This document shows positions 8,308-44,507 of a DNA stretch of 64,000 bases, one piece after another. This DNA comes from Halarcobacter ebronensis (lineage in GTDB: Bacteria; Campylobacterota; Campylobacteria; Campylobacterales; Arcobacteraceae). The stretch covers positions 1 through 64,000 of the forward strand of contig NZ_CP053836.1 of the NCBI RefSeq assembly GCF_013201825.1. Direction: 5' to 3'. The notes beneath the pieces are model-generated. The model made no database searches, was not told where the DNA came from, and saw only the letters and a list, made by a program, of their open reading frames with translations. The position numbers and the translations under genes were made by a program. Positions within the stretch are counted from its first letter, which is position 1. The number at the start of each line of letters is the position of its first letter.

Positions 8308-8712
8308 GTGAATATTTGTGGAATAGAGCTAAAAAGTAATCAAGCAATGTTAGTAGTAATAAATGAAAATGGATATTTAGATTTAAAAACAAAAAAAATT
8401 GTTCTTGAAAATGATGAAGAACAAAATAGTATAAGAGAGTTTTGTAATCAATTTTTATTATTTTTAGAAGAGAATGCAATAGATGCAATTGCCATTAAAA
8501 AAAGAGGGAAAAAAGGGGCTTTTGCAGGAGGAGCAGTAACTTTTAAGATGGAAGGTTTGATTCAATTAAATCCTTTAACTAAGGTAGAGTTGCTTTCATC
8601 ACAAACAATTTCCTCTTTTGAAAAGAGAAACAATATAGAATATCCACAAAGTTTAAAAAAATATCAAGAACAGGCATATTTAACCGCATTAAGTTATAAA
8701 GATAAGATATAA
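8308..8712 (+). CDS. DUF3010 family protein
   Basis: This 134-aa protein begins NICGIELKSNQAMLVVI and contains a central KKRGKKGAFAGGA stretch, both resembling the DUF3010 family, whose function is not established. The RNase H/actin-like opening (a beta strand ending in GIE) suggests a ribonuclease H-like fold, which is inference. The start is GTG at 8308 behind AAAAAGGA; the overlapping ATG at 8306 is out of frame. Confidence 0.75.
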   Translation: MNICGIELKSNQAMLVVINENGYLDLKTKKIVLENDEEQNSIREFCNQFLLFLEENAIDAIAIKKRGKKGAFAGGAVTFKMEGLIQLNPLTKVELLSSQTISSFEKRNNIEYPQSLKKYQEQAYLTALSYKDKI

Positions 8713-8735
8713 TTGATAAAAAACTGGAGAATAAG

Positions 8736-9128
8736 ATGTTTGAAGTAAATAGCATTGATCATATAGTACTTACAGTTAAAGATATACAAAAGAGTGTAGA
8801 GTTTTATACAAATATTTTAGGGATGAAAGAAGAGATTTTTAAAGGTAATAGAGTTGCACTTAAATTTGGTCATCAAAAGATAAATTTACATGAATTGGGA
8901 AATGAGTTTGAACCAAAAGCACAAAATGTAAAAGAGGGAAGTGCTGATTTGTGTTTTATAACCCAAATGAGTGTTTTAGAGTTTAAAAATCATATTGAAT
9001 CATTTGGCATTGAAATAATTGAAGGACCTATAAAAAGAACAGGTGCAAATGGTGAAATTAACTCTATATATTTAAGAGATCCAGATGGAAATTTAATAGA
9101 AGTTTCAAACTATATTTATGCCATATAA
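8736..9128 (+). CDS. VOC (glyoxalase/dioxygenase) family protein
   Basis: The 130-aa protein has the two-half betaalphabetabetabeta layout of the vicinal oxygen chelate superfamily. Metal-ligand candidates are His in SIDHIVLTV, His in INLHEL and Glu in the C-terminal DPDGNLIEVSNY. The substrate cannot be deduced. It has an AACTGGAG ribosome site, lies 23 bp after the DUF3010 gene, and ends in a bidirectional hairpin shared with the convergent gene. Confidence 0.85.
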   Translation: MFEVNSIDHIVLTVKDIQKSVEFYTNILGMKEEIFKGNRVALKFGHQKINLHELGNEFEPKAQNVKEGSADLCFITQMSVLEFKNHIESFGIEIIEGPIKRTGANGEINSIYLRDPDGNLIEVSNYIYAI

Positions 9129-9150
9129 CATACCAAAAGGTATGTTATTT
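9125..9150. terminator. Bidirectional terminator between convergent genes
   Basis: A perfect 10-bp stem, ATAACATACC (9125-9134) with GGTATGTTAT (9139-9148), and an AAAA loop. It includes the stop codons of both the VOC gene and the convergent dehydrogenase, and short A/T tracts lie on both sides. Confidence 0.75.
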
Positions 9151-9993
9151 AAAAAGCTGATAAATTGAAGAGAAATCCTCTTCTCCTCTTCCATCTTTTT
9201 TCATTTGACCAAATAGTTCTTTTGGTACAGCTGCTGTAAATAGTGGTTGATTTAAACTATAAGCCAAATCTTGAAGAGTGTGTAGGTCTTTATAAATTGC
9301 ATTGTTTGAGAAGTGTGCAGAAAAATCCTCTTCAATTAGTTTTTGAGTTTTTCCTTTTAAAACTAATGATTGTCCACCACCAACTCCAAGTATCTCTAAA
9401 AGTTTTGGTTTTTCAATATCACAAGCCTCTCCAAGTGCAGTACACTCTGCAATTGTTGCCATAAATGAGCCCAAACACAGATTGTTTATAAGTTTCATTT
9501 TTGAAGCTTTTCCAGGTTCTTTTAGATAAAAAATCTCTTTCCCAAATTTTTCAAGTAGTGGTTTACACTCATCAAAAGTCTCTTTCTCTCCAGAAGCTAC
9601 AATTGTAACTGCTCCTTGAAGGGCAGGAATAACACTTCCAAAAATTGGAGCTTCTAAATACTCTCCACCATTTTGGGAAATTTTATTATGGAAAGTCAAA
9701 ACTTTTTCATAATGGTTTGTGGTTAAATCTATGATAGTTTTACCCTGTAAATCAGCACTTAATAAACCATTTTCCATTTCAAATATATTTTCAACTGCCA
9801 AAGACTCAAAAAGACACATAAAAACTATATCGCAGTTGTCTATAAGCTCTTTTGGTGAGTCAAATACTTCATAGCCTGAATCTAAAGCTTTAGATTTAGT
9901 TCTATTATAAACTTTCAGTTTTTCTCCCATGTCAGTTAATCTTTTTGCAACTGCACTTCCTAAATTTCCCAGTCCTATAAATCCAATAGCCAT
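9145..9993 (-). CDS. NAD(P)-dependent 3-hydroxyisobutyrate dehydrogenase-family oxidoreductase
   Basis: The 282-aa protein matches the beta-hydroxyacid dehydrogenase family. It has an N-terminal Rossmann motif GFIGLGNLGSA, a substrate-binding segment EAPIFGSVIPALQGAVTIVASG-like (about 115-136), and the catalytic Lys in KASKMKLINN. Family members reduce or oxidise short hydroxyacids and semialdehydes such as succinic semialdehyde and glyoxylate; the substrate here is unknown. It is a single gene, convergent with the VOC gene. Confidence 0.88.
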   Translation of the reverse strand: MAIGFIGLGNLGSAVAKRLTDMGEKLKVYNRTKSKALDSGYEVFDSPKELIDNCDIVFMCLFESLAVENIFEMENGLLSADLQGKTIIDLTTNHYEKVLTFHNKISQNGGEYLEAPIFGSVIPALQGAVTIVASGEKETFDECKPLLEKFGKEIFYLKEPGKASKMKLINNLCLGSFMATIAECTALGEACDIEKPKLLEILGVGGGQSLVLKGKTQKLIEEDFSAHFSNNAIYKDLHTLQDLAYSLNQPLFTAAVPKELFGQMKKDGRGEEDFSSIYQLFK

Positions 9994-10082
9994 ATTAATC
10001 CTTTCACTTTTTTTTATTATAGTTAATTTTATTTAAAATTTATATAGACAATAAAAATTATTAATATAAAAATTTTATTATT

Positions 10083-10098
10083 AGGAATAGTTTATGCA
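10083..10098 (+). promoter_or_regulatory. Sigma-54 (-24/-12) promoter of LRV-like gene 1
   Basis: AGGAATAGTTTATGCA has GG and GC separated by exactly 10 bases. It is followed by a predicted start near 10109, just ahead of the AGGAG ribosome site (10111-10115) and the ATG at 10121. The extended word matches the sites before the ferredoxin and the aldo/keto reductase operon at most positions (AGGAAYRGTTYWTGCAT). Sigma-54 use is inferred from the pattern. Confidence 0.7.
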
Positions 10099-10120
10099 TT
10101 AATAAAAAAAAGGAGTTAAC

Positions 10121-10441
10121 ATGAGTTTTATAGAAAAAACCGAAATGGAACTAATCCAGTTAGCTATTACAAGTGAAGATTTAGAGTTATTAGAGCTATT
10201 GTTTAAATCAGAGAAGATGAATGTAAGAAGAGCATTGGCAAGAAATAAAAATATTGATGCAACGTTGGCAAATAAACTACTTTTTGATCCAGTGTTAAAT
10301 GTCTCATATATTGCCTCTTTTAATCCTAATACAACCCAAAAAAGAGAGTTTGATGAAGATATGATAACACCCTGTGTTAAATGTAGTATTGATGAGAGAA
10401 AGTTGGATTGTTTAAATTGCATTTATTTTAAAAATTTATAG
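10121..10441 (+). CDS. LRV-like CxxC mini-protein 1
   Basis: The 106-aa protein is one of three paralogs in the window. Its centre (NVRRALARNKNIDATLANKL then DPVLNVSYIASFNP) repeats the helical pattern of leucine-rich repeat variant (LRV) units, which in known nif-linked proteins accompany a [4Fe-4S] cluster. The C-terminus has CVKC, eight residues, then CLNC, a possible metal or Fe-S site. No other domain is visible. The sigma-54-type promoter suggests expression with nitrogen fixation. LRV assignment and cofactor are inferences. Confidence 0.8.
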   Translation: MSFIEKTEMELIQLAITSEDLELLELLFKSEKMNVRRALARNKNIDATLANKLLFDPVLNVSYIASFNPNTTQKREFDEDMITPCVKCSIDERKLDCLNCIYFKNL

Positions 10442-10498
10442 AGTATCCCATTTTTTCCCCATATTATCCTTTTATACTACAAATAAAAAAGGATAAAA

Positions 10499-11398
10499 AT
10501 GAAAAAAATATTACTGTTATCATTTTCAGCTTGTATATTATTAGCAAGTGAACAAAATTTTGTGGAGTTTGGTGTTGCTACTAAAAGTAGTAAAAATAAT
10601 TTTTCTACTATTGGTGAAGATAGTATAAATTCACAAAAGGCAAAGAGTGAAAGTGACACCTCACCTTATTTGAACTTTTTTTATGGATATAACTTAAGTG
10701 ATTCTACAAATATCTATGCTAGTTATAATAATGAGTTAAGAGTTGGTTCTAAAATGAATACCTCTTTTGGAAATTTTAACTTTGGAATAAAATATAGTGC
10801 ATATGACGCTTGGGAAGACCCTTTTTTACTTGGTACCAATAGAGTGGAGACTGATGTAAGAGAGTTAGGCGCTTATTTAGAGTATGGAGTATCTTTTTCA
10901 AATATTCATCAAGGTAAAATCAAATATGAATTTAGTTCAGTAGATTATAATAAAGAAAATATAGTAAAAGAGTTAGAACGTGAAGGATATAGACATATAC
11001 TTGGTTTTGACAATATGTGGAAACTTAAATTTTTTGAAAGAGATATTAATTATATGGCAAATGTTTCTTACGAAATGTATGATGCTGATGGAAAAGCAAG
11101 TGCTTATGATAGATATGATTTAATATTAGGGTTTAGTACTCCTGTTTCTGAAAATCTTACTCTCTCTTCTTTTATAGATATTGGTAAAAAGAATTATGAT
11201 GAAACTAACCCTGTTTTTAATAAAAAAATTGATTCAACTATAACAGGAATCAATGCAAATCTAAGATGGGACAATATACTAAATTACAAAAGTGTATATA
11301 TGAATTTTAAAGCAGGATACTTAGAAGAAGATGCAAATACAGATTTTTATGATAAAGAGACAACTTATGGAATAATAAGTTTAGGTTACAAGTTTTAA
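10499..11398 (+). CDS. Outer-membrane beta-barrel protein, probable DUF2860 family
   Basis: The 299-aa protein has a signal peptide (MKKILLLSFSACILLASEQ) and alternating beta-strand sequence to a C-terminal GYKF; a terminal aromatic residue is typical of BAM-assembled barrels. The segment around WEDPFLLGTNRVETD and the strand pattern resemble DUF2860 proteins. Function is unknown. A -10-like TATACT lies at about 10474. It converges on a histidine kinase gene 16 bp downstream. Confidence 0.75.
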   Translation: MKKILLLSFSACILLASEQNFVEFGVATKSSKNNFSTIGEDSINSQKAKSESDTSPYLNFFYGYNLSDSTNIYASYNNELRVGSKMNTSFGNFNFGIKYSAYDAWEDPFLLGTNRVETDVRELGAYLEYGVSFSNIHQGKIKYEFSSVDYNKENIVKELEREGYRHILGFDNMWKLKFFERDINYMANVSYEMYDADGKASAYDRYDLILGFSTPVSENLTLSSFIDIGKKNYDETNPVFNKKIDSTITGINANLRWDNILNYKSVYMNFKAGYLEEDANTDFYDKETTYGIISLGYKF

Positions 11399-11414
11399 TT
11401 AAAACTTGAGGAGT

Positions 11415-13154
11415 TTATTTTGAAGTTAATAGACTAATTATAAACTCCGCACCATCTTTTCTATTTACAACTTCAAGCTTTCCTTTCATATTTTTTTCAA
11501 TGATAATTTTAGACATATAAAGACCTATTCCTAAGCCACTCTCTTTTGTTGTAAAATAGGGTTCAAAAATTTTTTTTAGGATTTTTTCTTCTATGCCACC
11601 AGCATTATCTATTATTTTGATAATAAAATATTTATCGGTTTTAGAGAGTTCTATTACTATTTTAGGATTTATTGTTTTATTTTTTATAAATTCATCTTTG
11701 GCATTATTCAATAGATTAAATATCACTTGAGAAAGCTGTCCTTTATAAGTGTTTATTTGAAAATCTTTTTTATAAAATAGTTTAATTTCTATATCTAATA
11801 CTTTAAAACTCTCATTTAACAACCTAATATTCTCTTTTATACACTCAATAAGTGAAAAATCGCTTTGAAGTTTTGATGTCTTAAAAAAATTCCTAAAATC
11901 ATCAATTGTTTGTGACATAAACTCTATTTGTCTATTTGCTTCTTCACTTTTTTTACTAATATATTCATTGTTTAGTTTGTTATTATCATAAGCAGCTTTA
12001 ATATTCATAATAATATATGATAAATGGGTTAGAGGTTGTCTCCATTGATGGGCAATATTACCTATCATTTCACCCATTGAAGCTAATTTACTCTGATTTA
12101 TCAAAAGGGTTTCATTTTGTTGTTTTTCTAGCTCTATTTGTCTGATTTTTAATCCTAATGCAAGGGAGAAAATAAGAGATTCCAAAGGTATTCCTATATG
12201 TAAAAGATATAAATCGTTCATCTCAAAAAAATTTGTTTCAGAGAAAAAGACAATTGAAAAAAGTAAAGCCCACCCTATTAAATAGATAATAGCAGTTTTA
12301 TTTCCCCTTTTTAATACAACAAATGCTGAAAAAATCAAAATCAAAATAACATAATGTAATGAGATGTACTCAAATATATTAAGACTTTGAGAAAATAGAA
12401 TCATAAAAGAGTTTATGATTATAATAAGAGCTAAAACTTTAAGAGCTTTATGGATAGATGGAGTATATTTTTTGGTATCTAAAAATTCCAAATTAAATAA
12501 AATGGAAAAAAATAGTATAAAATTTATCAATATTGAGATTGATGAATCTATAATTTTTTCATTAACAGTTGTTATGCAACTAAAAATAAACATCTCTTTA
12601 TACATAATAAGCAATAAAAAGAATAACAATAATTGTAAAATTGAATAGTATAAAAAAGCTCGTTTTTTATTTGATAAATAAAATACTAAATTGTATAAAA
12701 AAGCACAAAGCAATATACCATATGAGATTCCAAAAAAGATTTTTTCATTTTTTAAAATATAGTTATATTCCAACTCATTATATATTTTTATATAAAACTT
12801 TGGCAAGTTATTATTTGCTTTAAAGACTAAAATCAAAGGCTCATTAATATCTTTATCGATTTTTATTAGAGGATAATCATCATTTAGTCTATATTTTAAA
12901 TTTGAAGAGACAAAAATATCTGGTTTGCAAAATATTTTTATATAGAAGATTTCATTATTTAGTATTTTTTTGTTTATATTAATTTTAAAAGTTATATCTT
13001 TATTTGTTTGAATATTTTTATAATTAGAGTTTTCAAAAGGTTCAAAAGTGATTCCATCATATGAGATAAATTTTGAACCAAATAGTGAATCTTTTATTGT
13101 TGTAGCATCTAAGTTTATTAAAATTAAAAAGATAAAAAGGATAATTCTAAGCAT
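11415..13154 (-). CDS. 7TMR-DISM sensor histidine kinase
   Basis: The 579-aa protein has a signal/TM start, an extracellular beta-rich domain (about 20-130, 7TMR-DISMED2-like) and about seven transmembrane helices (about 135-330). A dimerisation helix with His in NIAHQWRQPLT and an HATPase domain (DNAGGI, GLGIGLYMS) follow. It overlaps the response regulator gene upstream by 8 bp (start 13154, regulator stop 13147), so the two form a translationally coupled two-component pair. The ligand is unknown. Confidence 0.9.
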   Translation of the reverse strand: MLRIILFIFLILINLDATTIKDSLFGSKFISYDGITFEPFENSNYKNIQTNKDITFKININKKILNNEIFYIKIFCKPDIFVSSNLKYRLNDDYPLIKIDKDINEPLILVFKANNNLPKFYIKIYNELEYNYILKNEKIFFGISYGILLCAFLYNLVFYLSNKKRAFLYYSILQLLLFFLLLIMYKEMFIFSCITTVNEKIIDSSISILINFILFFSILFNLEFLDTKKYTPSIHKALKVLALIIIINSFMILFSQSLNIFEYISLHYVILILIFSAFVVLKRGNKTAIIYLIGWALLFSIVFFSETNFFEMNDLYLLHIGIPLESLIFSLALGLKIRQIELEKQQNETLLINQSKLASMGEMIGNIAHQWRQPLTHLSYIIMNIKAAYDNNKLNNEYISKKSEEANRQIEFMSQTIDDFRNFFKTSKLQSDFSLIECIKENIRLLNESFKVLDIEIKLFYKKDFQINTYKGQLSQVIFNLLNNAKDEFIKNKTINPKIVIELSKTDKYFIIKIIDNAGGIEEKILKKIFEPYFTTKESGLGIGLYMSKIIIEKNMKGKLEVVNRKDGAEFIISLLTSK

Positions 13155-13815
13155 TTAATTTATAACCTATGCCAGATATGTTTTTGATACTCTCTTTTGA
13201 GATCTTTTTTCTTAACTCTTTTACAATAGTTCTTAAAGCATCTTCGGTCATCAAACCTTTCCACACATAATTGTTTAATTCACTATATTTTACTGCTCTT
13301 TTATTATTATTTATTAATAATTCTAAAAATAGAAGCTCTTTTTTTGTCAAAACTATAGGTTCTTTATCTTTGAATAAAGTTTTATTATAAGTATCAAAAG
13401 TAAAATTATCTGAAAATTTAAAAATATTTTTATTATCAATCATATCTTCTATACATGATTTTAATACGGGTAAAAGTTTATTAGCTGTTAATGGTTTTAA
13501 TAAATATTTTACCAAACCCAATTCAACAGCTTCAAGTAAATACGAAGTTTCTAAAAATGCAGTAGCTAATATTATTTTGGTTTTTTTATCATCTTTTCGT
13601 ATTTTTCTTATCATCTCCAATCCGTTTAGTTTAGGCATTTTTATATCTGTTATTATAATATCAGGGATATGAAGTTTATATTTTTCAAAACCCTCTAAAC
13701 CATCTTTTGCTTCAATTACATTATCACAATAAAAACCTAAATACTCTACGGCATTTTCCCTTATAAAATCTTCATCATCAATATATAAAATTTTTAAGTT
13801 TTTTAACTCTTCCAT
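13147..13815 (-). CDS. OmpR-type response regulator
   Basis: The 222-aa protein has a receiver domain with phospho-acceptor Asp in DIIITDIKMPKLNG and Lys in LLKPLT, then a winged-helix DNA-binding domain ending NISGIGYKLNA. It is the cognate regulator of the overlapping 7TMR-DISM kinase. Confidence 0.92.
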   Translation of the reverse strand: MEELKNLKILYIDDEDFIRENAVEYLGFYCDNVIEAKDGLEGFEKYKLHIPDIIITDIKMPKLNGLEMIRKIRKDDKKTKIILATAFLETSYLLEAVELGLVKYLLKPLTANKLLPVLKSCIEDMIDNKNIFKFSDNFTFDTYNKTLFKDKEPIVLTKKELLFLELLINNNKRAVKYSELNNYVWKGLMTEDALRTIVKELRKKISKESIKNISGIGYKLNA

Positions 13816-13872
13816 AATTAGTTCTCCTTTCTTATTATAATTAAAAAAAGATGTGGTAATTATGGTTTTAAT

Positions 13873-14493
13873 TTATATATTTATTAAAATTGCAATTATT
13901 ATAAGAATAAAGCCTGAACTCTTTTCTATATAGTTTGAATAGTTCTCCAAAAAAATCTTACTTTTTTTATTTGTAACCAAATAAACTATAAATATATCCC
14001 ACAATAAAACAGCAAAAAACATCCATGCTGCATAAAATATTTGGATTGAAAATGAAGTATCATTTTGTATAGAAATAGAAAACATTGTAAAATAAAATAT
14101 TGAATTTTTTGGGTTTAAAATCGCTGAAAAAAATCCCATAGAAAAGTATTTAAAGATATCTTTTTTTGTTTTCTTTTTTTCGATTTTTTTACCAAATAGT
14201 TCCCTTTTTTTCGATTTTAAGAGTAAAAAACCAATATATAAAAGATAAATAGAACCTAATATTTTTATTGTTGCAAATATTAATTGATTCTCTTTTATTA
14301 AACTTATTCCAAAAAGTGCAAGTAAAATATAAAAAAGGTTTGCAAAAGCAATACCTGTGGATGTTAATATTCCTCCCAATTTACCATATTTAGATGAGTT
14401 TGATAATATAATAAAAAAATCTACTCCTGGACTCAATAATGCCATAAAGTGAGCTAAAGCAAGGGTTAAAAACCCTATCATAAAATTTTCCAT
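13873..14493 (-). CDS. LysE/RhtB family amino-acid exporter
   Basis: The 206-aa protein is an integral membrane protein with about six helices and the family motif near the N-terminus, LLSPGVDFFIILSNSSKYG. Members export amino acids or similar metabolites. It lies 42 bp downstream of an AraC-type regulator on the same strand, which may control it. The substrate cannot be deduced. Confidence 0.88.
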   Translation of the reverse strand: MENFMIGFLTLALAHFMALLSPGVDFFIILSNSSKYGKLGGILTSTGIAFANLFYILLALFGISLIKENQLIFATIKILGSIYLLYIGFLLLKSKKRELFGKKIEKKKTKKDIFKYFSMGFFSAILNPKNSIFYFTMFSISIQNDTSFSIQIFYAAWMFFAVLLWDIFIVYLVTNKKSKIFLENYSNYIEKSSGFILIIIAILINI

Positions 14494-37239: not shown

Positions 37240-38298
37240 ATGGATAAAAAATATACTATATTGATAGTTGATGATAAACTTGAGAATTTACAATATCTTC
37301 ATATAGTCTTAAAAGATGAGGATTATGATATTAGGGCAACTCCTGATGCAATGATGGCATTAGAAGCTGCAAAATTAAATACTCCAGATTTAATACTTTT
37401 AGATATAAAAATGCCAAATATTGATGGCTATGAGTTATGTAGAATGATAAAAAAGCAGGAGAGTCTAAAAGAGATACCAATAATATTTATCTCAGCTTTA
37501 GATAGTGTAGAAGATAAAGTAAAAGCATTTGAAGAGGGTGGTGTTGATTATATTACAAAACCCTTTGAACCAAAAGAGATACAAGCAAGGATTAAAACAC
37601 AACTACAAATCCATAAAAGCAAAATAATGATAGCAAGGCTCTATGAACAACAAGATCTATTTGTAAAGAAAATAATGCATGAGATGAATACTCCTGTTTC
37701 AATTATCTCTTTAAATACAGATTTAATGGAGAGACAAAATGGACCTTCAAAGGAAGTTGAAGCTATAAAGGCTTCTGTTAAAACTCTCTCTTCTATTTAT
37801 GGAGATTTATCCTATAAAATTAAAAAGGAGACTAAAGAGTATAAAATCTCTCAAATAAATCTTCTTGAATTTATTAGCTCAAGGGTTCAGTTTTTTGATG
37901 AACTTGCAAATACAAAAGATATTCATTTAAATTTGGAGTATAACAAAAACTGTGATGTTTTTATAAATAAGTATGAGCTTGAAAGAGTTATTGATAACAC
38001 CATAAGCAATGCAATAAAATATAGTAAACAAAGTAGTGAAATAAATATCTTTTTTGGAGAAGAAGCTGGAGATACAATTATTGAAATAGAGGATTTTGGA
38101 GTAGGAATTGAAGACCTTGATATGATATTTCAAGCCTATTATCAACAATCAAACAAAAGATTAGGACTGGGATTAGGTTTAAATATAGTAAAAGAGATTT
38201 GTGATAAATATGGTATTGATATAGATGTTATGAGCAAAAAAGGTGTTGGAACAAAATTTGTTTTTGATATAAAATCTATTGTAAAGAGTAGTTTATGA
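37240..38298 (+). CDS. Soluble receiver-histidine kinase fusion
   Basis: The 352-aa protein has a receiver domain first (Asp in LILLDIKMPNIDG, Lys in YITKPFEP), then a kinase dimerisation helix with His in KKIMHEMNTPVSIIS and an HATPase domain (NTISNAIKYSK, GLGLGLNIVKEI). No membrane segment is present. It overlaps the next response regulator gene by 4 bp (ATGA) and is divergent from the hybrid kinase, which may phosphorylate its receiver. Confidence 0.9.
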   Translation: MDKKYTILIVDDKLENLQYLHIVLKDEDYDIRATPDAMMALEAAKLNTPDLILLDIKMPNIDGYELCRMIKKQESLKEIPIIFISALDSVEDKVKAFEEGGVDYITKPFEPKEIQARIKTQLQIHKSKIMIARLYEQQDLFVKKIMHEMNTPVSIISLNTDLMERQNGPSKEVEAIKASVKTLSSIYGDLSYKIKKETKEYKISQINLLEFISSRVQFFDELANTKDIHLNLEYNKNCDVFINKYELERVIDNTISNAIKYSKQSSEINIFFGEEAGDTIIEIEDFGVGIEDLDMIFQAYYQQSNKRLGLGLGLNIVKEICDKYGIDIDVMSKKGVGTKFVFDIKSIVKSSL

Positions 38299-38972
38299 AA
38301 ATATTTTTGCTTGAGGACGATTTTTCACTAAATAGACTTATTTGCAATGCATTAGAACAAAGAGGTTTTTTTGTTACAAGTGTTGATGATGGTTATGATG
38401 CAATGACAAATATTTTAAACAATAAGTATGATCTTTATATTTTAGATATAAATGTTCCAGGTTTCTCAGGTCATGAGGTTTTAGAACAAATTAGAAAAAG
38501 CCACGAGAAGTTGCCAGTTATAATAGTAAGTGCGCAACTTGATATTGATAATATCTCAAAGGCGTATGATTTAGGGTGTAATGATTATTTAAAAAAGCCC
38601 TTTGAATTAGAAGAGTTGATTTTACATGTCAAATATCATATAAAGAGCATTTTGAAAAGTGATGTTGATAAGGATGTTATAGAATTAGGTTCAGGGTTTA
38701 GTTTTAATCTTAAAGAGCAAAGCCTATATAAACATAATCATGAGATTATATTAACCCAAAAAGAGAAACTGCTTTTAACTCTGCTTATAAACAATTTGGA
38801 TAAAACTGTTAGTTCTGAAATGATACATGAATATGTTTGGGACAGCAAAGAGATGGAAGCTGTTAGTATGAGAAGTATGGTTCATAAACTCCAAAAAAAA
38901 TTAAAAAGTGGAATGATAGTAAATATTAGAGGTATTGGTTATAGACTCATCAGTGCAAAAGTTGAGTTATAA
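38295..38972 (+). CDS. OmpR-type response regulator
   Basis: The 225-aa protein has a receiver domain (Asp in LYILDINVPGFSG, Lys in YLKKPFE) and a winged-helix output domain ending NIRGIGYRLI. It is translationally coupled to the receiver-kinase fusion and is probably its partner. Confidence 0.92.
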   Translation: MKIFLLEDDFSLNRLICNALEQRGFFVTSVDDGYDAMTNILNNKYDLYILDINVPGFSGHEVLEQIRKSHEKLPVIIVSAQLDIDNISKAYDLGCNDYLKKPFELEELILHVKYHIKSILKSDVDKDVIELGSGFSFNLKEQSLYKHNHEIILTQKEKLLLTLLINNLDKTVSSEMIHEYVWDSKEMEAVSMRSMVHKLQKKLKSGMIVNIRGIGYRLISAKVEL

Positions 38973-39020: not shown

Positions 39021-40076
39021 TTGCAAAACGCCAATTATTTACTAAATATTTTCAATTATAAACTCTATAAATATACAAATAGAACATATATCAACTTTGT
39101 TGAGGATATCCTCGACTTTGATTTTGACAAATCAAAAATAAAAATTGTATATTTAAATGAATATAGTCACAGCAAATTTTTTAATGAACTTTTTTTGGTT
39201 GAAGATAATGGAGATATAAAATTTCTTCATAAACATAATCTTATAAAGTTTATATACTCAAAAAAGTGTGAAATAAACTCCTTACTAAATATAAATATAA
39301 AAAACCAAAAAACCTATGAATTAATAAGAGTTATAGAGATACTTCAAAAGAGTTTTTTAATAAGTAATGATTTAAAAGATTTAAAGAAGATAAGTCATGA
39401 AGATATATTAAAACTTCATAAAATACTTTTTAACAGCTTTTTATCAAAACCTATAATCAGCCTTATAATAAATAATACAAACTATCGAGATAGAAACAAT
39501 AATATTTTGAAACTTTCTTATCTTGTCCCTAAAAATCATTTTGTAAACTATATTAAAATAAAAAATATTTTAAGTATTCATCCTTTTGCAACTGATAAGT
39601 TATTGCAAGAGGAGTTAAAAAGAGTACATGGGGTTGAGATATCCACCGTGCAGATTTTTAAAATCAGGAAAAAATACTTTATTCCAAATAGATTTGAAAG
39701 ATTTATAAACAACAACTACAAAAGGTTTGAACTCTATTTCTCTACACCAAAACTTCTATCAAATGACAATATCAATTCTTATAGTAATCTCTCTGCGGCA
39801 TATGAGTTAATTGCTGTTACAAAAGTTAGTTATAACTACAGTGAAACAAATACAATTTATATAGGTTCAACAAAGAATTTATATAAAAGATTAAACGAGT
39901 ATAAAAATGGTAAAGGGCACTCTTCAAAAATGAGAGAATTCCTAAAAAATAATCAAATTTATTTTAGATTTATAGAGACTGAGAACTATAAGCATTTAGA
40001 AACAGTATTATTACATGAATTTATATTTTTTTATGGAGATATGCCCCTTTTAAATTTTAATAATGCAAAAAAATAA
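39021..40076 (+). CDS. Protein with RpoN C-terminal-like region fused to a GIY-YIG nuclease domain
   Basis: The 351-aa protein is unusual. Residues about 95-170 (LIRVIEILQKSFL, then LKKISHEDIL, then NNNILKLSYL) follow the pattern of the sigma-54 core-binding/HTH region. Residues 186-227 (HPFATDKLLQEELK, then STVQIFKIRKKYFIP) resemble the RpoN-box domain with a degenerate box. Residues 277-345 form a GIY-YIG-like domain: TIYIGSTKNLYKRLNEY with Arg290, Glu327 and Asn345. The start is TTG at 39021 with AGGA 7 bp before. The sigma-54 resemblance is by eye and needs profile search. Confidence 0.65.
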   Translation: MQNANYLLNIFNYKLYKYTNRTYINFVEDILDFDFDKSKIKIVYLNEYSHSKFFNELFLVEDNGDIKFLHKHNLIKFIYSKKCEINSLLNINIKNQKTYELIRVIEILQKSFLISNDLKDLKKISHEDILKLHKILFNSFLSKPIISLIINNTNYRDRNNNILKLSYLVPKNHFVNYIKIKNILSIHPFATDKLLQEELKRVHGVEISTVQIFKIRKKYFIPNRFERFINNNYKRFELYFSTPKLLSNDNINSYSNLSAAYELIAVTKVSYNYSETNTIYIGSTKNLYKRLNEYKNGKGHSSKMREFLKNNQIYFRFIETENYKHLETVLLHEFIFFYGDMPLLNFNNAKK

Positions 40077-40190
40077 TCCTATAAAGTATGTAACATTTTG
40101 CAAAATAAAGAAAATAATTTTATTAACCTTAATGAAAAGATAAGATAAGATAAGATACTCCATTATTAATAATAAAGTGGGGTATAAATA

Positions 40191-42053
40191 ATGTTGAAAA
40201 ATGTCAGTACAAGAGTTAAGCTTATGCTTTTTCCGGTTATGTTTATAATAGTAATTATTACTTCAAGTATTACGTTTAAGCATTATTTTGGTGTCTCAAA
40301 TACGCGCAATGACGCTGCTGTTAAAACAGAAATCTTTCTACAACAATTTTTAAAGACAAGAATTGCAGTTTATCAGTTTATGAAAAATCCCAATGAAGAA
40401 TCATCAAAAAATGTTACAAATTTGTTAACAACATTTAGTAGTGAGATGGAGGCTTTTAAGTCAAAACTCTCTAAAAAAGCCAATCGTGACATATGTGATG
40501 ATATACTAAAACATGTTGGAACATATAAGATTTACTTTGATTTACTTAGTAAAGCAGAGCTAAATAATAATGCAAATACTTCTGAATATAAACAAGATCT
40601 TGCCAATATGATAAGTGCTAGTGATAGGCTTGAAGAATCATTAGAAAAAATTAACAAAAGTGCAACAGAATTAAAAGAAGAATCTATTGTAACTATGGAG
40701 GGTGTCTTAATGGCATTAGCCATGTTTTTTACTGTAATTTTTATTGGTTTTTCTATCTTTATTGTAAAACTTATTATCTCTTCACTTGATGATTTTAAAG
40801 TTGGTTTGGAAAACTTTTTTAACTACTTAAATAGAAAAGCAGAAAAAACTACTCTTTTAGATGACAAAAGAAAAGATGAATTTGGGAAAATGGCTAAAAT
40901 GGTCAATGAAAATATAGTTAGAACAAAAGAGTCTGTTGAAGAGGATAGAGATGTTATTCAAAAAGTAATTGAGGTTTTAGGTGAGTTGGAAAAAGGTGAT
41001 TTATATCAAAGAGTAAAAGCAAAATCATCAAATCCTGCTTTAGAAAAGCTTATCTCATTGCTTAATGATATGAGTTCAAATCTTGAATCAAATATTGATA
41101 GAATCTTAAAAATACTTGCTCAGTACTCTGAATATAAATATGTAAACACGGTTGAAACTAAAAATCTTAAAGAGCATCTTCTAAGATTGGCTGAGGGTGT
41201 AAATATGTTAGGTGAATCAATAACAGGAATGTTAATTGAGAGTGACAAAAATGGAGCTATTTTAGATAATAGTTCAAATGTATTATTAAAAAATGTTGAT
41301 ATTTTAAATCAAAACTCAAATGAAGCAGCAGCTGCTCTTGAAGAGACAGCGGCAGCTTTAGAACAAATCACTGGAAATATTGTAAATAACACAGAGAATG
41401 TAGTGAAAATGTCAAACTATGCAAAAGAGTTAAGTAGATCTGCAAATGAAGGACAAAAACTTGCAACAAAAACAACATCTGCAATGGATGATATAAATAG
41501 TAAAGTTAACTCTATTAATGAAGCAATTACAGTTATTGATCAAATTGCTTTCCAAACAAATATTCTTTCACTAAATGCTGCTGTTGAAGCAGCAACAGCA
41601 GGAGAAGCTGGAAAAGGTTTTGCAGTTGTAGCTCAAGAGGTAAGAAATCTTGCTTCAAGAAGTGCAGAAGCAGCAAAAGAGATAAAAGAGTTGGTTGAAG
41701 ATGCTACAGTAAAAGCAAACTATGGGAAAGAGATAGCTGATGAGATGATAGTTGGATATGAGGGATTAAATAAAAATATTAAAAATACCCTTGATATTAT
41801 CTCTGATGTTGAAATGGCAAGTAAAGAGCAATCAACAGGGATTGAACAGATAAATGATGCGATAACTTCTCTTGACCAACAAACACAACAAAATGCTGCA
41901 ATTGCAACACAAACCCATGAAGTAGCAATGCAAACTGATGAGATAGCAAAAACAATTGTAGAAAGTGTTAATGAAAAAGAGTTTAACAAAAATTTGAAAA
42001 TTGAGCCAAAAATCAAAAAAGATGAAGTTGAGAAATTAGCTGATATCGCATAA
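40191..42053 (+). CDS. Methyl-accepting chemotaxis protein
   Basis: The 620-aa chemoreceptor has TM helices near 10-28 and 172-196 around a periplasmic four-helix type sensor, a HAMP-like region, and a cytoplasmic signalling domain with the conserved tip ([20 protein letters not shown]). There is no obvious CheR-binding pentapeptide at the C-terminus. The ligand is unknown. Upstream (40139-40157) is a short run of GATAA repeats. Confidence 0.93.
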
Positions 42054-42063
42054 AGGGTCTAAA

Positions 42064-44094
42064 ATGGAAAATGAACTCTCACCTAGAAAAGTTACAAAAT
42101 ATCCAGTAGATACTTTTGCAAATCAAGTAGATGCCTTAGTATATACAGTTGACATGGAGACTCAAGAGATTCTCTTTTGTAACGAAAAGTGTATGGAGGA
42201 GTTTGGTAATATTATTGGCAAAAAATGTCATGACCTATTGGAAAAAGTCTCGGTGAGTAGCTATTTAGACTCTTTTGATGATATACATTGGGGAGAAGAT
42301 GTAAGTGAGTATATGCACTCCCTAAGTAATAGAATATATCTATTTAGTGAGAAAATAGTTGAAGATTATAAGAAACTAAAAAAAGTAAAAGTTAGAGTTG
42401 GTGTTGATGTAACAACAAAAAAAAGTAATGGGAATAAAAGTAAAGATAAAAATCTTAAAAACAGTGATGTAATTGAGGCAATTTTAGATGCAACCATAGA
42501 GGGTATTTTTGTCTATGATGAGAAAAGAAAGTGCATAAAAGTTAATGATGTTGCCTCAAAAATATTTTGTTATACAAAAGATGAAATATTGGGAAAAGAT
42601 GTATCAAATTTTGTAGATCAAACATCTGTTCCAACAGTTAGAGAGATTCTTGCAACAGGATATGAAGAACCCTATGAAGCCACAATGATAAGGAGAAATG
42701 GAGAGAAATTTCCTTGTGTTTTAAGGGGTAAATATATCTATTTGAATAATGAAAAAGTAAGAGTTGTTGCAATTTTGGATATAAGTAATGTAAAAGAGAA
42801 AGAGGGTGAAATTGTAAAACTTGCTTTTTATGACTCCTTAACAAAACTGCCCAATAAAGTACTACTTAAAGATAGGGTAGATCAACTACTAACAAAGTTT
42901 AATAGAACAAATCACTATGGTGGACTTATTATAATTGATTTAGACCATTTTAAAAATATCAATGATACAAAAGGGCACTTTATTGGAGATAGAGTATTAG
43001 TAGAATTTGCGAAGAGATTACAAGCTTTAATAAGAAGATATGACACCATCTCAAGATTTGGAGGGGATGAGTTTATAGTATTAATTAATACTGAGTTTAG
43101 TGATAGAATTAAAGCCACTAATAGCATAAAAGAGATTGCAAAAAAGATATTAAAGAATATAAAAAAGAGTTTTAAAATAGATGAAGATGAGTATATTTTA
43201 ACAGCAAGTATTGGTATCTCTATTTTTGATAAAAATTTTACCTATGATGAAATTCTAAAGTGTGCAGATAGTGCTATGAATTTTGCAAAAAAAAGAGGTA
43301 GAGACAACTACAACTTTTTTGATTCAAAACTCCAATTAGAACTTGAGAGAAAGGCAATAATAACTACTAGATTAAGGGATGCCATAAGATATAATCAAAT
43401 ATCAATTGTATATCAAAAACAGGTACATTTAGATAAAAAAGTAGTTGGAGTGGAAGCCTTAGCTAGATGGGAAGATCAAGAGTTAGGATTAGTAAGTCCA
43501 AATGAGTTTATTCCTATAGCAGAAGAGAGTGGGTTAATCATAGAGTTTGGTTACCATCTTATTGAAGAGGCGGTAAAGCTTTTAAAAACGTGGCAAGAAA
43601 ATCATGAAAAGTCAAACTGGAGAGTCTCTGTAAATGTAAGTTTGAGTCAATTTGTAAAAGATGATTTTATAAAATATATTGAAAATATGGTTAATATATA
43701 TGGGATTGACCCAAAACTTTTAAGGCTAGAAATTACTGAAAGTTTTCTTTTAAGTAATGGTGATAATGCTATCAAGAAAATTGATTATCTAAAAAAATTG
43801 GGACTTAGTATCTCAATTGATGATTTTGGTACAGGTTACTCCTCTTTGGGATATTTAAAAAAATTATCAATAGATGAATTAAAGATTGACAAGATATTTA
43901 TTGATGATATTTTAGAAGATAAAAATGATGAAATACTTGTTTGTGCTATTTTAGAGATAGGAAATAAATTTGATATAGATGTTATTGCAGAAGGTGTTGA
44001 AAACAGCCAAACCCATGAGAAGTTGAAATCTCTTGGTTGTAAGTATTTTCAAGGGGATTACTTCTTTGTTCCACAAACAAGAAGTGAGCTATAA
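42064..44094 (+). CDS. PAS-GGDEF-EAL cyclic-di-GMP enzyme
   Basis: The 676-aa protein has an N-terminal PAS-like region, a second PAS domain (about 140-255), a GGDEF domain with intact RFGGDEFIVL (cyclase) and an EAL domain with VGVEALARWED and DDFGTGYSSLGYL (phosphodiesterase). Both catalytic signatures look intact, so the net activity cannot be predicted. It starts 10 bp after the chemoreceptor gene, so they are probably cotranscribed. Confidence 0.92.
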   Translation: MENELSPRKVTKYPVDTFANQVDALVYTVDMETQEILFCNEKCMEEFGNIIGKKCHDLLEKVSVSSYLDSFDDIHWGEDVSEYMHSLSNRIYLFSEKIVEDYKKLKKVKVRVGVDVTTKKSNGNKSKDKNLKNSDVIEAILDATIEGIFVYDEKRKCIKVNDVASKIFCYTKDEILGKDVSNFVDQTSVPTVREILATGYEEPYEATMIRRNGEKFPCVLRGKYIYLNNEKVRVVAILDISNVKEKEGEIVKLAFYDSLTKLPNKVLLKDRVDQLLTKFNRTNHYGGLIIIDLDHFKNINDTKGHFIGDRVLVEFAKRLQALIRRYDTISRFGGDEFIVLINTEFSDRIKATNSIKEIAKKILKNIKKSFKIDEDEYILTASIGISIFDKNFTYDEILKCADSAMNFAKKRGRDNYNFFDSKLQLELERKAIITTRLRDAIRYNQISIVYQKQVHLDKKVVGVEALARWEDQELGLVSPNEFIPIAEESGLIIEFGYHLIEEAVKLLKTWQENHEKSNWRVSVNVSLSQFVKDDFIKYIENMVNIYGIDPKLLRLEITESFLLSNGDNAIKKIDYLKKLGLSISIDDFGTGYSSLGYLKKLSIDELKIDKIFIDDILEDKNDEILVCAILEIGNKFDIDVIAEGVENSQTHEKLKSLGCKYFQGDYFFVPQTRSEL

Positions 44095-44124
44095 AAAGGC
44101 TTCTTTTAAGAAGCCTCTTTTTAG
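44093..44124. terminator. Bidirectional terminator after the GGDEF-EAL gene
   Basis: AGGCTTCTT (44097-44105) pairs with AAGAAGCCT (44108-44116), followed by CTTTTT on the plus strand and preceded by AAAAA, so it can serve the minus-strand ferredoxin gene as well. Confidence 0.8.
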
Positions 44125-44507
44125 AAGTTTTGTACGTTTGCCCCTGATTCTCTGTCAGCCATAGAGATATCAGAAATAAATTTTTGCTCTTTAACGCTTG
44201 GTAGCATAAGACCTTTTGATTTATGTTCTCTAATTTTATAGATACCTTCATCATTTTTCTCTGAGAAATAGTCATTAAACTCTGAAGTATAAGGCATATC
44301 CCATACAATAGCACCCTCAGTTGGACATGCTTCAGCACATCTTGGAGCATCTGCATGATCAACACACTCTACACATGTTTCAGGTTTTACATAAAAGAAA
44401 TCATCGTTTGGATTTTTTTCATTTCCCTCTTCTAAGATTGCCGCAACTGGACACTCCGAGATACATGCCTCACAACTTATGCATTCGTCAGTTATTCTTA
44501 CTGCCAT
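44121..44507 (-). CDS. 2[4Fe-4S] ferredoxin, nif-associated
   Basis: The 128-aa protein has two cluster-binding motifs, CISCEACISECP (C-x2-C-x2-C-x3-CP) and CVECVDHADAPRCAEACP (C-x2-C-x8-C-x3-CP). The long second spacing is typical of FdxN and related nif-linked ferredoxins. The C-terminal 60 residues are an extension of unknown role. It has its own sigma-54-type promoter and probably supplies low-potential electrons to nitrogenase or cofactor assembly. Confidence 0.88.
   Translation of the reverse strand: MAVRITDECISCEACISECPVAAILEEGNEKNPNDDFFYVKPETCVECVDHADAPRCAEACPTEGAIVWDMPYTSEFNDYFSEKNDEGIYKIREHKSKGLMLPSVKEQKFISDISMADRESGANVQNF

Follow-up and report, generated by a model that had tools for sequence, protein, structure and literature searches.

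Sigma-54 (RpoN) binds the -24 element of its promoters through the RpoN box and the -12 element through a helix-turn-helix (HTH) motif (PMC6028918, PMC7057263). The consensus of these promoters is GG-N10-GC, and the arginines of the RpoN box contact the -24 GG. To our knowledge, the DNA-binding part of sigma-54 has not been described outside a sigma factor. Among GIY-YIG endonucleases, I-TevI offers a precedent for one protein acting as both endonuclease and autorepressor (PMC2988022). Short tandem units can serve as an operator, as in the (GGTATA)3 operator of NanR (PMC8012715). Phase-variable simple-repeat loci carry short tandem repeats next to or within surface or signalling genes, and are not known to have a dedicated nuclease.

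Here we analyse a gene within a 64,000-nucleotide stretch of the Halarcobacter ebronensis genome (the window) that resembles each of these systems in part. Its product resembles RpoN (PF04552 region) in having part of the extra-long helix (ELH)-HTH and an RpoN box, ordered as they are there, and outside the window's genus the DNA element linked to it has GG-N10-G spacing; unlike RpoN, it lacks region I and the core-binding domain, has a nuclease attached and occurs in genomes without a detectable rpoN. Like I-TevI and the T4 GIY-YIG endonucleases, it combines a GIY-YIG domain with a separate HTH-containing DNA-binding part, but here the binding part, which is of sigma-54 type, precedes the nuclease domain in the chain, the gene is chromosomal or plasmid-borne, and the elements stand at many host promoters. 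The element recalls the NanR operator in its short tandem units; NanR, however, is a GntR-type protein, whereas here five-base units follow a -24/-12-like core. It also recalls phase-variable loci in placing short tandem repeats by signalling genes, but the number of units is nearly fixed in Campylobacterota.

No fusion of GIY-YIG and sigma-54 DNA-binding parts was found in the open-access literature searched, most subscription papers lying outside the search; an earlier reading of the sequence without database searches (the sequence-only reading) had likewise known of none. The same literature contained no paper on GIY-YIG proteins in Arcobacteraceae or on Arcobacter chemoreceptors with sigma-54, and the words 'sigma' and 'RpoN' are absent from the main text of a survey of the GIY-YIG superfamily (PMC1564403). 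Only co-mentions were seen, once each: GIY-YIG with RpoN in a Paraburkholderia secretion-system paper, and GIY-YIG with Arcobacter in a Burkholderia genome paper. What is new would be the way in which head, nuclease, element and gene set come together, a statement that rests on an inferred link between protein and element.

A sigma-54-type DNA-binding region joined to a GIY-YIG domain

The fusion gene (39,021-40,076, forward strand) starts with TTG and encodes 351 amino acids in three parts, all on that strand. An N-terminal region of unknown fold (aa 1-90, 39,021-39,290) is followed by a sigma-54-type region (aa 91-230, 39,291-39,710), whose homology is to the RpoN box and to part of the ELH-HTH. 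The GIY-YIG nuclease domain (aa 259-345, 39,795-40,055) comes last. The window protein alone has no match to an RpoN or sigma-54 family in Pfam, and with four sequences from the window's genus (g1) the link to RpoN is weak (hhalign probability 1.9, P 0.025) and not demonstrable; in the default hhalign run with realignment, the best match of this four-sequence alignment lay elsewhere. A profile of 16 homologs, however, aligned aa 91-230 with residues 288-427 of 433 of an RpoN profile built from 30 Campylobacterota loci out of 37 listed PF04552 matches (probability 95.9, P 5.8e-9). The piece 85-235 reached P 2.3e-10 and a score of 73; none of 100 column shuffles scored above 21, and the reversed alignment scored 12. 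Taken separately, the RpoN-box half (172-235) gave P 1.8e-9 and the HTH half (85-175) P 0.0011. Compared with the full-length RpoN profile, aa 1-90 gave P 0.31, that is, no match, and the GIY part P 0.18.

Three of five relatives scanned pass the Pfam cut-offs for both Sigma54_DBD (PF04552) and GIY-YIG, namely the Sulfuricystis plasmid protein (38.5 and 26.4 bits, respectively) and the proteins of loci L041 and L044; the other two pass for GIY-YIG only. In a PDB search with the family profile the first 13 of 26 matches were sigma-54 chains (E 1e-4 to 0.012), and the next was Endonuclease II (E 0.013). Run over a sample of 397 Campylobacterota genomes, with at most five candidates scored per genome, the family profile matched at least 276; matches in genomes without the gene went down to E 5e-9 and mostly covered model positions ~95-250. 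An RpoN-box protein is encoded at 21 of the 22 non-fusion loci fetched, the 22nd remaining unresolved by motif. The middle third of the fusion is homologous to the part of sigma-54 that reads the -12 and -24 elements.

The similarity begins near residue 333 in the 477-aa sigma-54 chains of the PDB, a position which the residue ranges in PMC6028918 place inside the ELH. The ELH/HTH and RpoN box are therefore present and the core-binding domain is absent. Region I, which interacts with the activator, is absent as well, given that aa 1-90 have no RpoN match and Pfam finds no sigma-54 family. The RpoN-box equivalent of the window protein, GVEISTVQIFKIRKKYFIP (aa 204-222, 39,630-39,686, forward strand), has Thr-Val in place of the Arg-Arg of the box. 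The box is better kept outside the genus (ISRRTVCDIRNKYLIP; LSRRSIAAIRHQLAVP) than in the window protein (ISTVQIFKIRKKYFIP; degenerate, STVQ): all 12 aligned homologs from outside g1 have Arg-Arg, and none of the four g1 proteins does.

At the other end, the window protein passes the Pfam cut-offs for GIY-YIG (PF01541; 27.5 bits against 22.6) and T5orf172 (22.6 bits against 20). The GIY half reads AAYEL at aa 259-263, the glycine of the motif being alanine in all four proteins of the genus, and is GVYEL or of the GIYEL type outside it. The domain has the hallmarks of the superfamily, both the GIY and the YIG motif together with Arg, Glu and Asn, and all 16 aligned homologs share Y261, Y280, R290, E327 and N345. 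The arginine, glutamate and asparagine are catalytic in I-TevI (PMC2988022), and the roles of the two tyrosines of the GIY-YIG domain are also established. The catalytic residues are kept in the fusion; DNA cleavage itself is inferred, there being no biochemistry, although preservation of the active site suggests that the protein does cut at some point. Structure prediction from two sequences yielded no usable model (pLDDT 38.5).

Most of what the sequence-only reading had said of the protein held. Its fusion of a sigma-54-like C-terminal region with a GIY-YIG domain is borne out by the profile comparison and by Pfam in relatives, and a profile search that could have assigned residues 90-230 to an unrelated fold found sigma-54 instead. 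Its claims that the last box is degenerate, that the N-terminal activator-interacting region is missing and that Arg290 and Glu327 are plausible catalytic residues stand too, the last as invariant residues with catalysis inferred. The order of RpoN regions that it saw in residues 95-227 holds for the HTH and RpoN box but not for the core-binding region, and its GIY-YIG domain at 277-345 holds in part, the domain beginning earlier, at aa 259.

Distribution of the gene and its neighbourhood

Three further genomes of the window's genus encode orthologs, at 74, 63 and 58% identity. In a profile search of the family, 14 of 104 genomes, from 3 of 20 genera, proved to carry the gene: 4 of 16 genomes in g1, 9 of 31 in g11 and 1 of 2 in g9, where a stop interrupts the sole copy. 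Carriers in the phylum sample number 8 of 397. Homologs were also found on the plasmids pACLO of Arcobacter cloacae, pSTJ2 of Sulfuricystis multivorans and pDCB1 of Diaphorobacter sp. JS3051; pDCB1 is typed as conjugative. Profile searches of phages and viral contigs found no relatives at the sensitivity used, and a phage origin of the fusion was rejected on that ground. Scanning a contig collection gave no match with the genus alignment and only Aliarcobacter vitoriensis with the g11 alignment.

Copies vary in state. G072 has two uninterrupted copies (L092, L093), each adjoining a different chemoreceptor. G088 has a degraded second copy with several stops (contig C1, 612033-612407; L096), and in G112 a stop cuts off the N-terminal part of the fusion (C1, 432485-433565; L094); the adjoining element and chemoreceptor look intact in both. 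A full-length rpoN is present in six of the 14 carriers (G000, G002, G014, G068, G088 and G112) and was not found in the other eight. In the window's genome rpoN lies at 75505-75969, outside the window.

In the window the fusion gene heads a trio, followed by a methyl-accepting chemotaxis protein (MCP; 40,191-42,053, forward strand, Pfam MCPsignal 136 bits) and a PAS-GGDEF-EAL protein (42,064-44,094, forward strand, domains from Pfam). An OmpR-like response regulator (38,295-38,972, forward strand) forms the left border of this module and a ferredoxin-like gene (44,124-44,507, reverse strand), named by eye from its cysteine motif, the right. In all four g1 carriers a chemoreceptor gene and then a PAS-GGDEF-EAL gene come after the fusion. 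Over the 17 loci compared, 15 from 14 Campylobacterota genomes and two from betaproteobacterial plasmids, a chemoreceptor adjoins the fusion at 14, the exceptions being L089, L090 and L081. The third partner is less constant, no GGDEF/EAL gene adjoining the fusion in 8 of 14 carriers.

The position of the trio differs among genomes of the genus, which indicates that the module has moved. It lies between the response regulator and the ferredoxin-like gene in three genomes; in G009 it adjoins a fumC-like gene and the response regulator is elsewhere. In G010 and G001 it is missing and the two border genes are neighbours, with a 106-aa ORF between them in G010. These were two of seven fetched response-regulator regions of the genus without the module there, the other five having different neighbours. 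An ortholog of the PAS-GGDEF-EAL protein (E <= 1e-120) is found in 5 of 16 genus genomes, the four carriers and G004. In G004 it stands at a contig edge (L135, start of contig 10), so the fusion may lie in the gap and the count of carriers could be one too low.

The (AAGAT)4 element and the genes behind it

A putative target or operator element lies downstream of the fusion gene in the window (40,121-40,156, forward strand). It consists of TATTAACCTTAATGAA followed by (AAGAT)4 at 40,137-40,156, and the MCP gene starts 34 bp past the repeat. Across the family (AAGAT)4 occurs in 14 of 104 genomes. These are precisely the carriers of the gene, and the remaining 90 lack the repeat; of the 397 genomes in the phylum sample 8 have it, once more the carriers and no others. 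The reversed pattern of (AAGAT)4 was found in none of the family genomes. (AAGAT)3 adds to the 14 carriers only single matches in G090, G022 and G116. If genomes were independent, the chance of such co-occurrence would be 1e-17 in the family, 5e-4 in g1 and 5e-8 in g11; they are not independent, and the association reflects shared descent in part. The repeat was also seen in 28 viral-contig stretches, whose contents were not inspected.

Of the 15 Campylobacterota loci, 13 have four or five units between the fusion and its neighbour, one of these tracts containing a mismatch; L086 and L089 do not. Six of the 14 carriers have four-copy sites away from an intact gene: 12 of 13 matches in G070, 3 of 3 in G062, 3 of 3 in G071, 3 of 4 in G089, 1 of 2 in G072, and 1 of 2 in G088, where the match lies beside the degraded copy. 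In G062 and G071 the element is not beside the gene at all, only elsewhere in the genome, and in G112 it is intact though the gene is interrupted.

Outside the window's genus the usual form of the element is TGG-N8-T(A/T)G(A/C)-(AAGAT)4, with the -24/-12 spacing of sigma-54. Among 32 aligned g11/g9 sites the first T is present in 31, the two Gs in 32 and 31, then come ten bases including TAAT, a further G in 31, and the four AAGAT units; this GG-N10-G spacing is that of sigma-54 promoters, and three of four sites in G089 have TTGC at -12. In counts over all sites, GG is present in 32 of 33 g11/g9 sites against 0 of 4 in g1, and the G twelve bases past the first G likewise in 32 of 33 against 0 of 4; TAAT is kept in 31 of 33 and in 4 of 4, the window's site being one that keeps TAAT and lacks the GG and the G. 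Where several registers were possible the TGG-bearing one was preferred, so these counts favour TGG; without that preference, over exact runs of at least three units, TGG stands at the fixed position in 29 of 33 g11/g9 sites and in none of the four in g1.

The search for sites tolerated no more than 3 mismatches in 20 and was confined to stretches surrounding matches already known. Two identical G070 sites were collapsed to one; a three-copy site in G072 (777770, before an MCP) was lost through the threshold. A three-copy match within an ORF of G088 was left out as chance, as were the single three-copy matches in G090, G022 and G116, two of which are inside ORFs and one between. Exactly four perfect units are present at 30 of 37 Campylobacterota sites and five at two, and this near-constancy favours an operator of fixed length and disfavours free slippage.

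The g1 lineage has lost both the Arg-Arg of the RpoN box and the GG of the site. As both losses, and that of the G, fall in one lineage of four genomes with one site each, they count as one event and not as repeated covariation. Two conventional identities for the element were considered. A sigma-54 promoter was rejected, because in the eight carriers in which rpoN was not found the element cannot serve, or be read by, sigma-54. A sigma-70 -10 box is not favoured: the sites of G070 match TATAAT, but ATTAAT stands at that place in many others.

All 37 distinct sites precede signalling genes, at distances of 11 to 428 bp. The downstream gene was taken as the first same-strand ORF of at least 200 aa starting within 700 bp, a small ORF often coming first. 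By site, these are 29 chemoreceptors and three more cut by contig ends, three response-regulator-GGDEF proteins, one histidine kinase and one dCache sensor protein; the 37 sites lead to 35 genes, as two MCPs (in G062 and G071) have two sites each. MCP and GGDEF labels come from a motif script, with five proteins checked by Pfam, and the three truncated MCPs were named through shared sequence only. One mark of a regulon, a shared element upstream of functionally related and partly unlinked genes, is present; an effect on expression is inferred. For scale, the whole genome of A. butzleri RM4018 has 29 MCPs (PMC2147049), though carriage of the gene in A. butzleri is not established. MCPs 76-81% identical to the neighbour of the A. 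cloacae fusion are found in G063, G079 and (partial) G075, which have neither gene nor element.

At several sites (L091, L092, L095, L176, L181, L182, L185 and L186) a small protein of 53-78 aa with the pattern KDI..LHE.RR lies between element and chemoreceptor; two members scanned had no Pfam match. At L176, in G070, 4227 bp (8574-12800) are exactly repeated 4195 bp onward, a recent tandem duplication of element-headed chemoreceptor units whose breakpoints fall within MCP coding sequence.

The sequence-only reading had placed the gene in a window with several sigma-54-type promoters. This was fair: TTGG-N8-TTGCW occurs six times in the whole window against 1.7 expected, a number reached by none of 100 shuffles, and all six matches are more than 8 kb from the fusion gene.

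A putative regulator of chemoreceptor genes and its rivals

The reading we favour, by a modest margin, is that the fusion is a site-specific DNA-binding regulator, derived from sigma-54 and bearing a nuclease, of a chemoreceptor and c-di-GMP regulon; binding, cleavage and the effect on expression are all inferred. Under this proposal the RpoN box would read GG and the HTH the TNG 12 bp further on, while the N-terminal region, or further subunits, would cover the four AAGAT units. Binding would set the expression of the genes downstream of the element and, where the gene is divergent from the site, also that of the fusion gene itself. The nuclease would probably nick or cut at or near the element under some condition, the role of cutting in regulation being open; an active nuclease directed against its own promoters would be costly unless restrained. 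The suggestion, made from the sequence alone, of a DNA-targeted nuclease recognising -12-type sites is supported by the co-occurrence of element and gene, with binding and cutting inferred.

One objection is that the element could be read by some other protein which invariably accompanies the gene. A bolder reading, which we hold only as a possibility, is that the sigma-54 head finds the elements before chemoreceptor genes and a nick or cut in the repeat acts as a switch, which would operate through changed repeat number or promoter state.

The rival that survives best, though we think it unlikely, is a repeat-switch enzyme that would cut beside the -12-like half and so cause gain or loss of tandem repeats, turning chemoreceptor and c-di-GMP genes on and off. 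In its favour are the invariant catalytic residues, two Campylobacterota sites with five units, and the two betaproteobacterial plasmids, in which tandem repeats of differing length follow a canonical TGG-N8-TTGC. On pSTJ2 and pDCB1, TTGG-N8-TTGC stands directly before (GCAA)6 and (GCAA)5, respectively, at the start of the EAL gene adjoining the fusion, and a second TGG-N8-TTGC stands one base before (GAA)7 and (GAA)8 inside that gene. The layout of a sigma-54-like core and then short tandem repeats is thus retained, with other units and within coding sequence, but this is only suggestive, coming from two related modules. With its two simple-repeat tracts the EAL gene (L081, ~13125-14060; L082, reverse strand) looks phase-variable. 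Against the rival, the Campylobacterota unit is always AAGAT and is present in exactly four perfect copies at most sites, whereas slippage tracts would vary more; the Campylobacterota repeats lie upstream of genes and not in coding sequence; the betaproteobacterial modules are only two and closely related; and the plasmid stretches in question, 22.6 and 25.1 kb long, contain 10 and 8 copies of TGG-N8-TTGC, respectively.

We consider it very improbable that the fusion is a cassette mobiliser, which would cut at elements to recombine or spread element-headed chemoreceptor cassettes. The differing places of the trio in the genus and its absence between the same border genes in G010 and G001, the plasmid homologs, one of them on a plasmid typed as conjugative, and the arrays of element-MCP units in G070 would suit it. 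However, the one recent duplication found (the 4.2-kb repeat in G070) breaks within MCP coding sequence and not at elements, on which ground recombination at elements was rejected; non-carriers have no elements as landing sites; and no terminal repeats were seen by eye at the borders of the trio.

It is equally hard to credit that the element belongs to another co-carried regulator, for example the PAS-GGDEF-EAL partner, with the fusion only hitch-hiking. The trio does travel together in the window's genus, but PAS-GGDEF-EAL orthologs occur without gene and element in G063, G075, G079 and G084, among others, the majority of carriers have no adjoining GGDEF/EAL gene, and the sigma-54 spacing of the element fits the fusion's own head.

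A homing endonuclease with a new DNA-binding head, for which the GIY-YIG domain, the patchy distribution (14 of 104) and the degraded and interrupted copies in G088 and G112 might speak, is for the most part ruled out and was rejected because the 90 gene-less family genomes lack the four-copy element (taking the element to be the target), the element is intact beside the gene and is also found at many other promoters, and phages and viral contigs hold no relatives at the sensitivity used; the domesticated homing-type enzyme of the sequence-only reading is unsupported for the same lack of a target element in gene-less genomes.

On the favoured reading, the DNA-binding part of sigma-54 has been separated from the sigma factor and attached to a nuclease, and it has its own sigma-54-like element and putative target genes that encode chemoreceptors and c-di-GMP enzymes; some relatives lie on plasmids in Campylobacterota and Betaproteobacteria, and the fusion persists in genomes without a detectable rpoN. 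Within the genomes searched, the pairing of gene and element points to an unknown control of the sensor genes that steer swimming, and as both partners are defined, a protein and a DNA element, such control of sensing genes would be directly testable.
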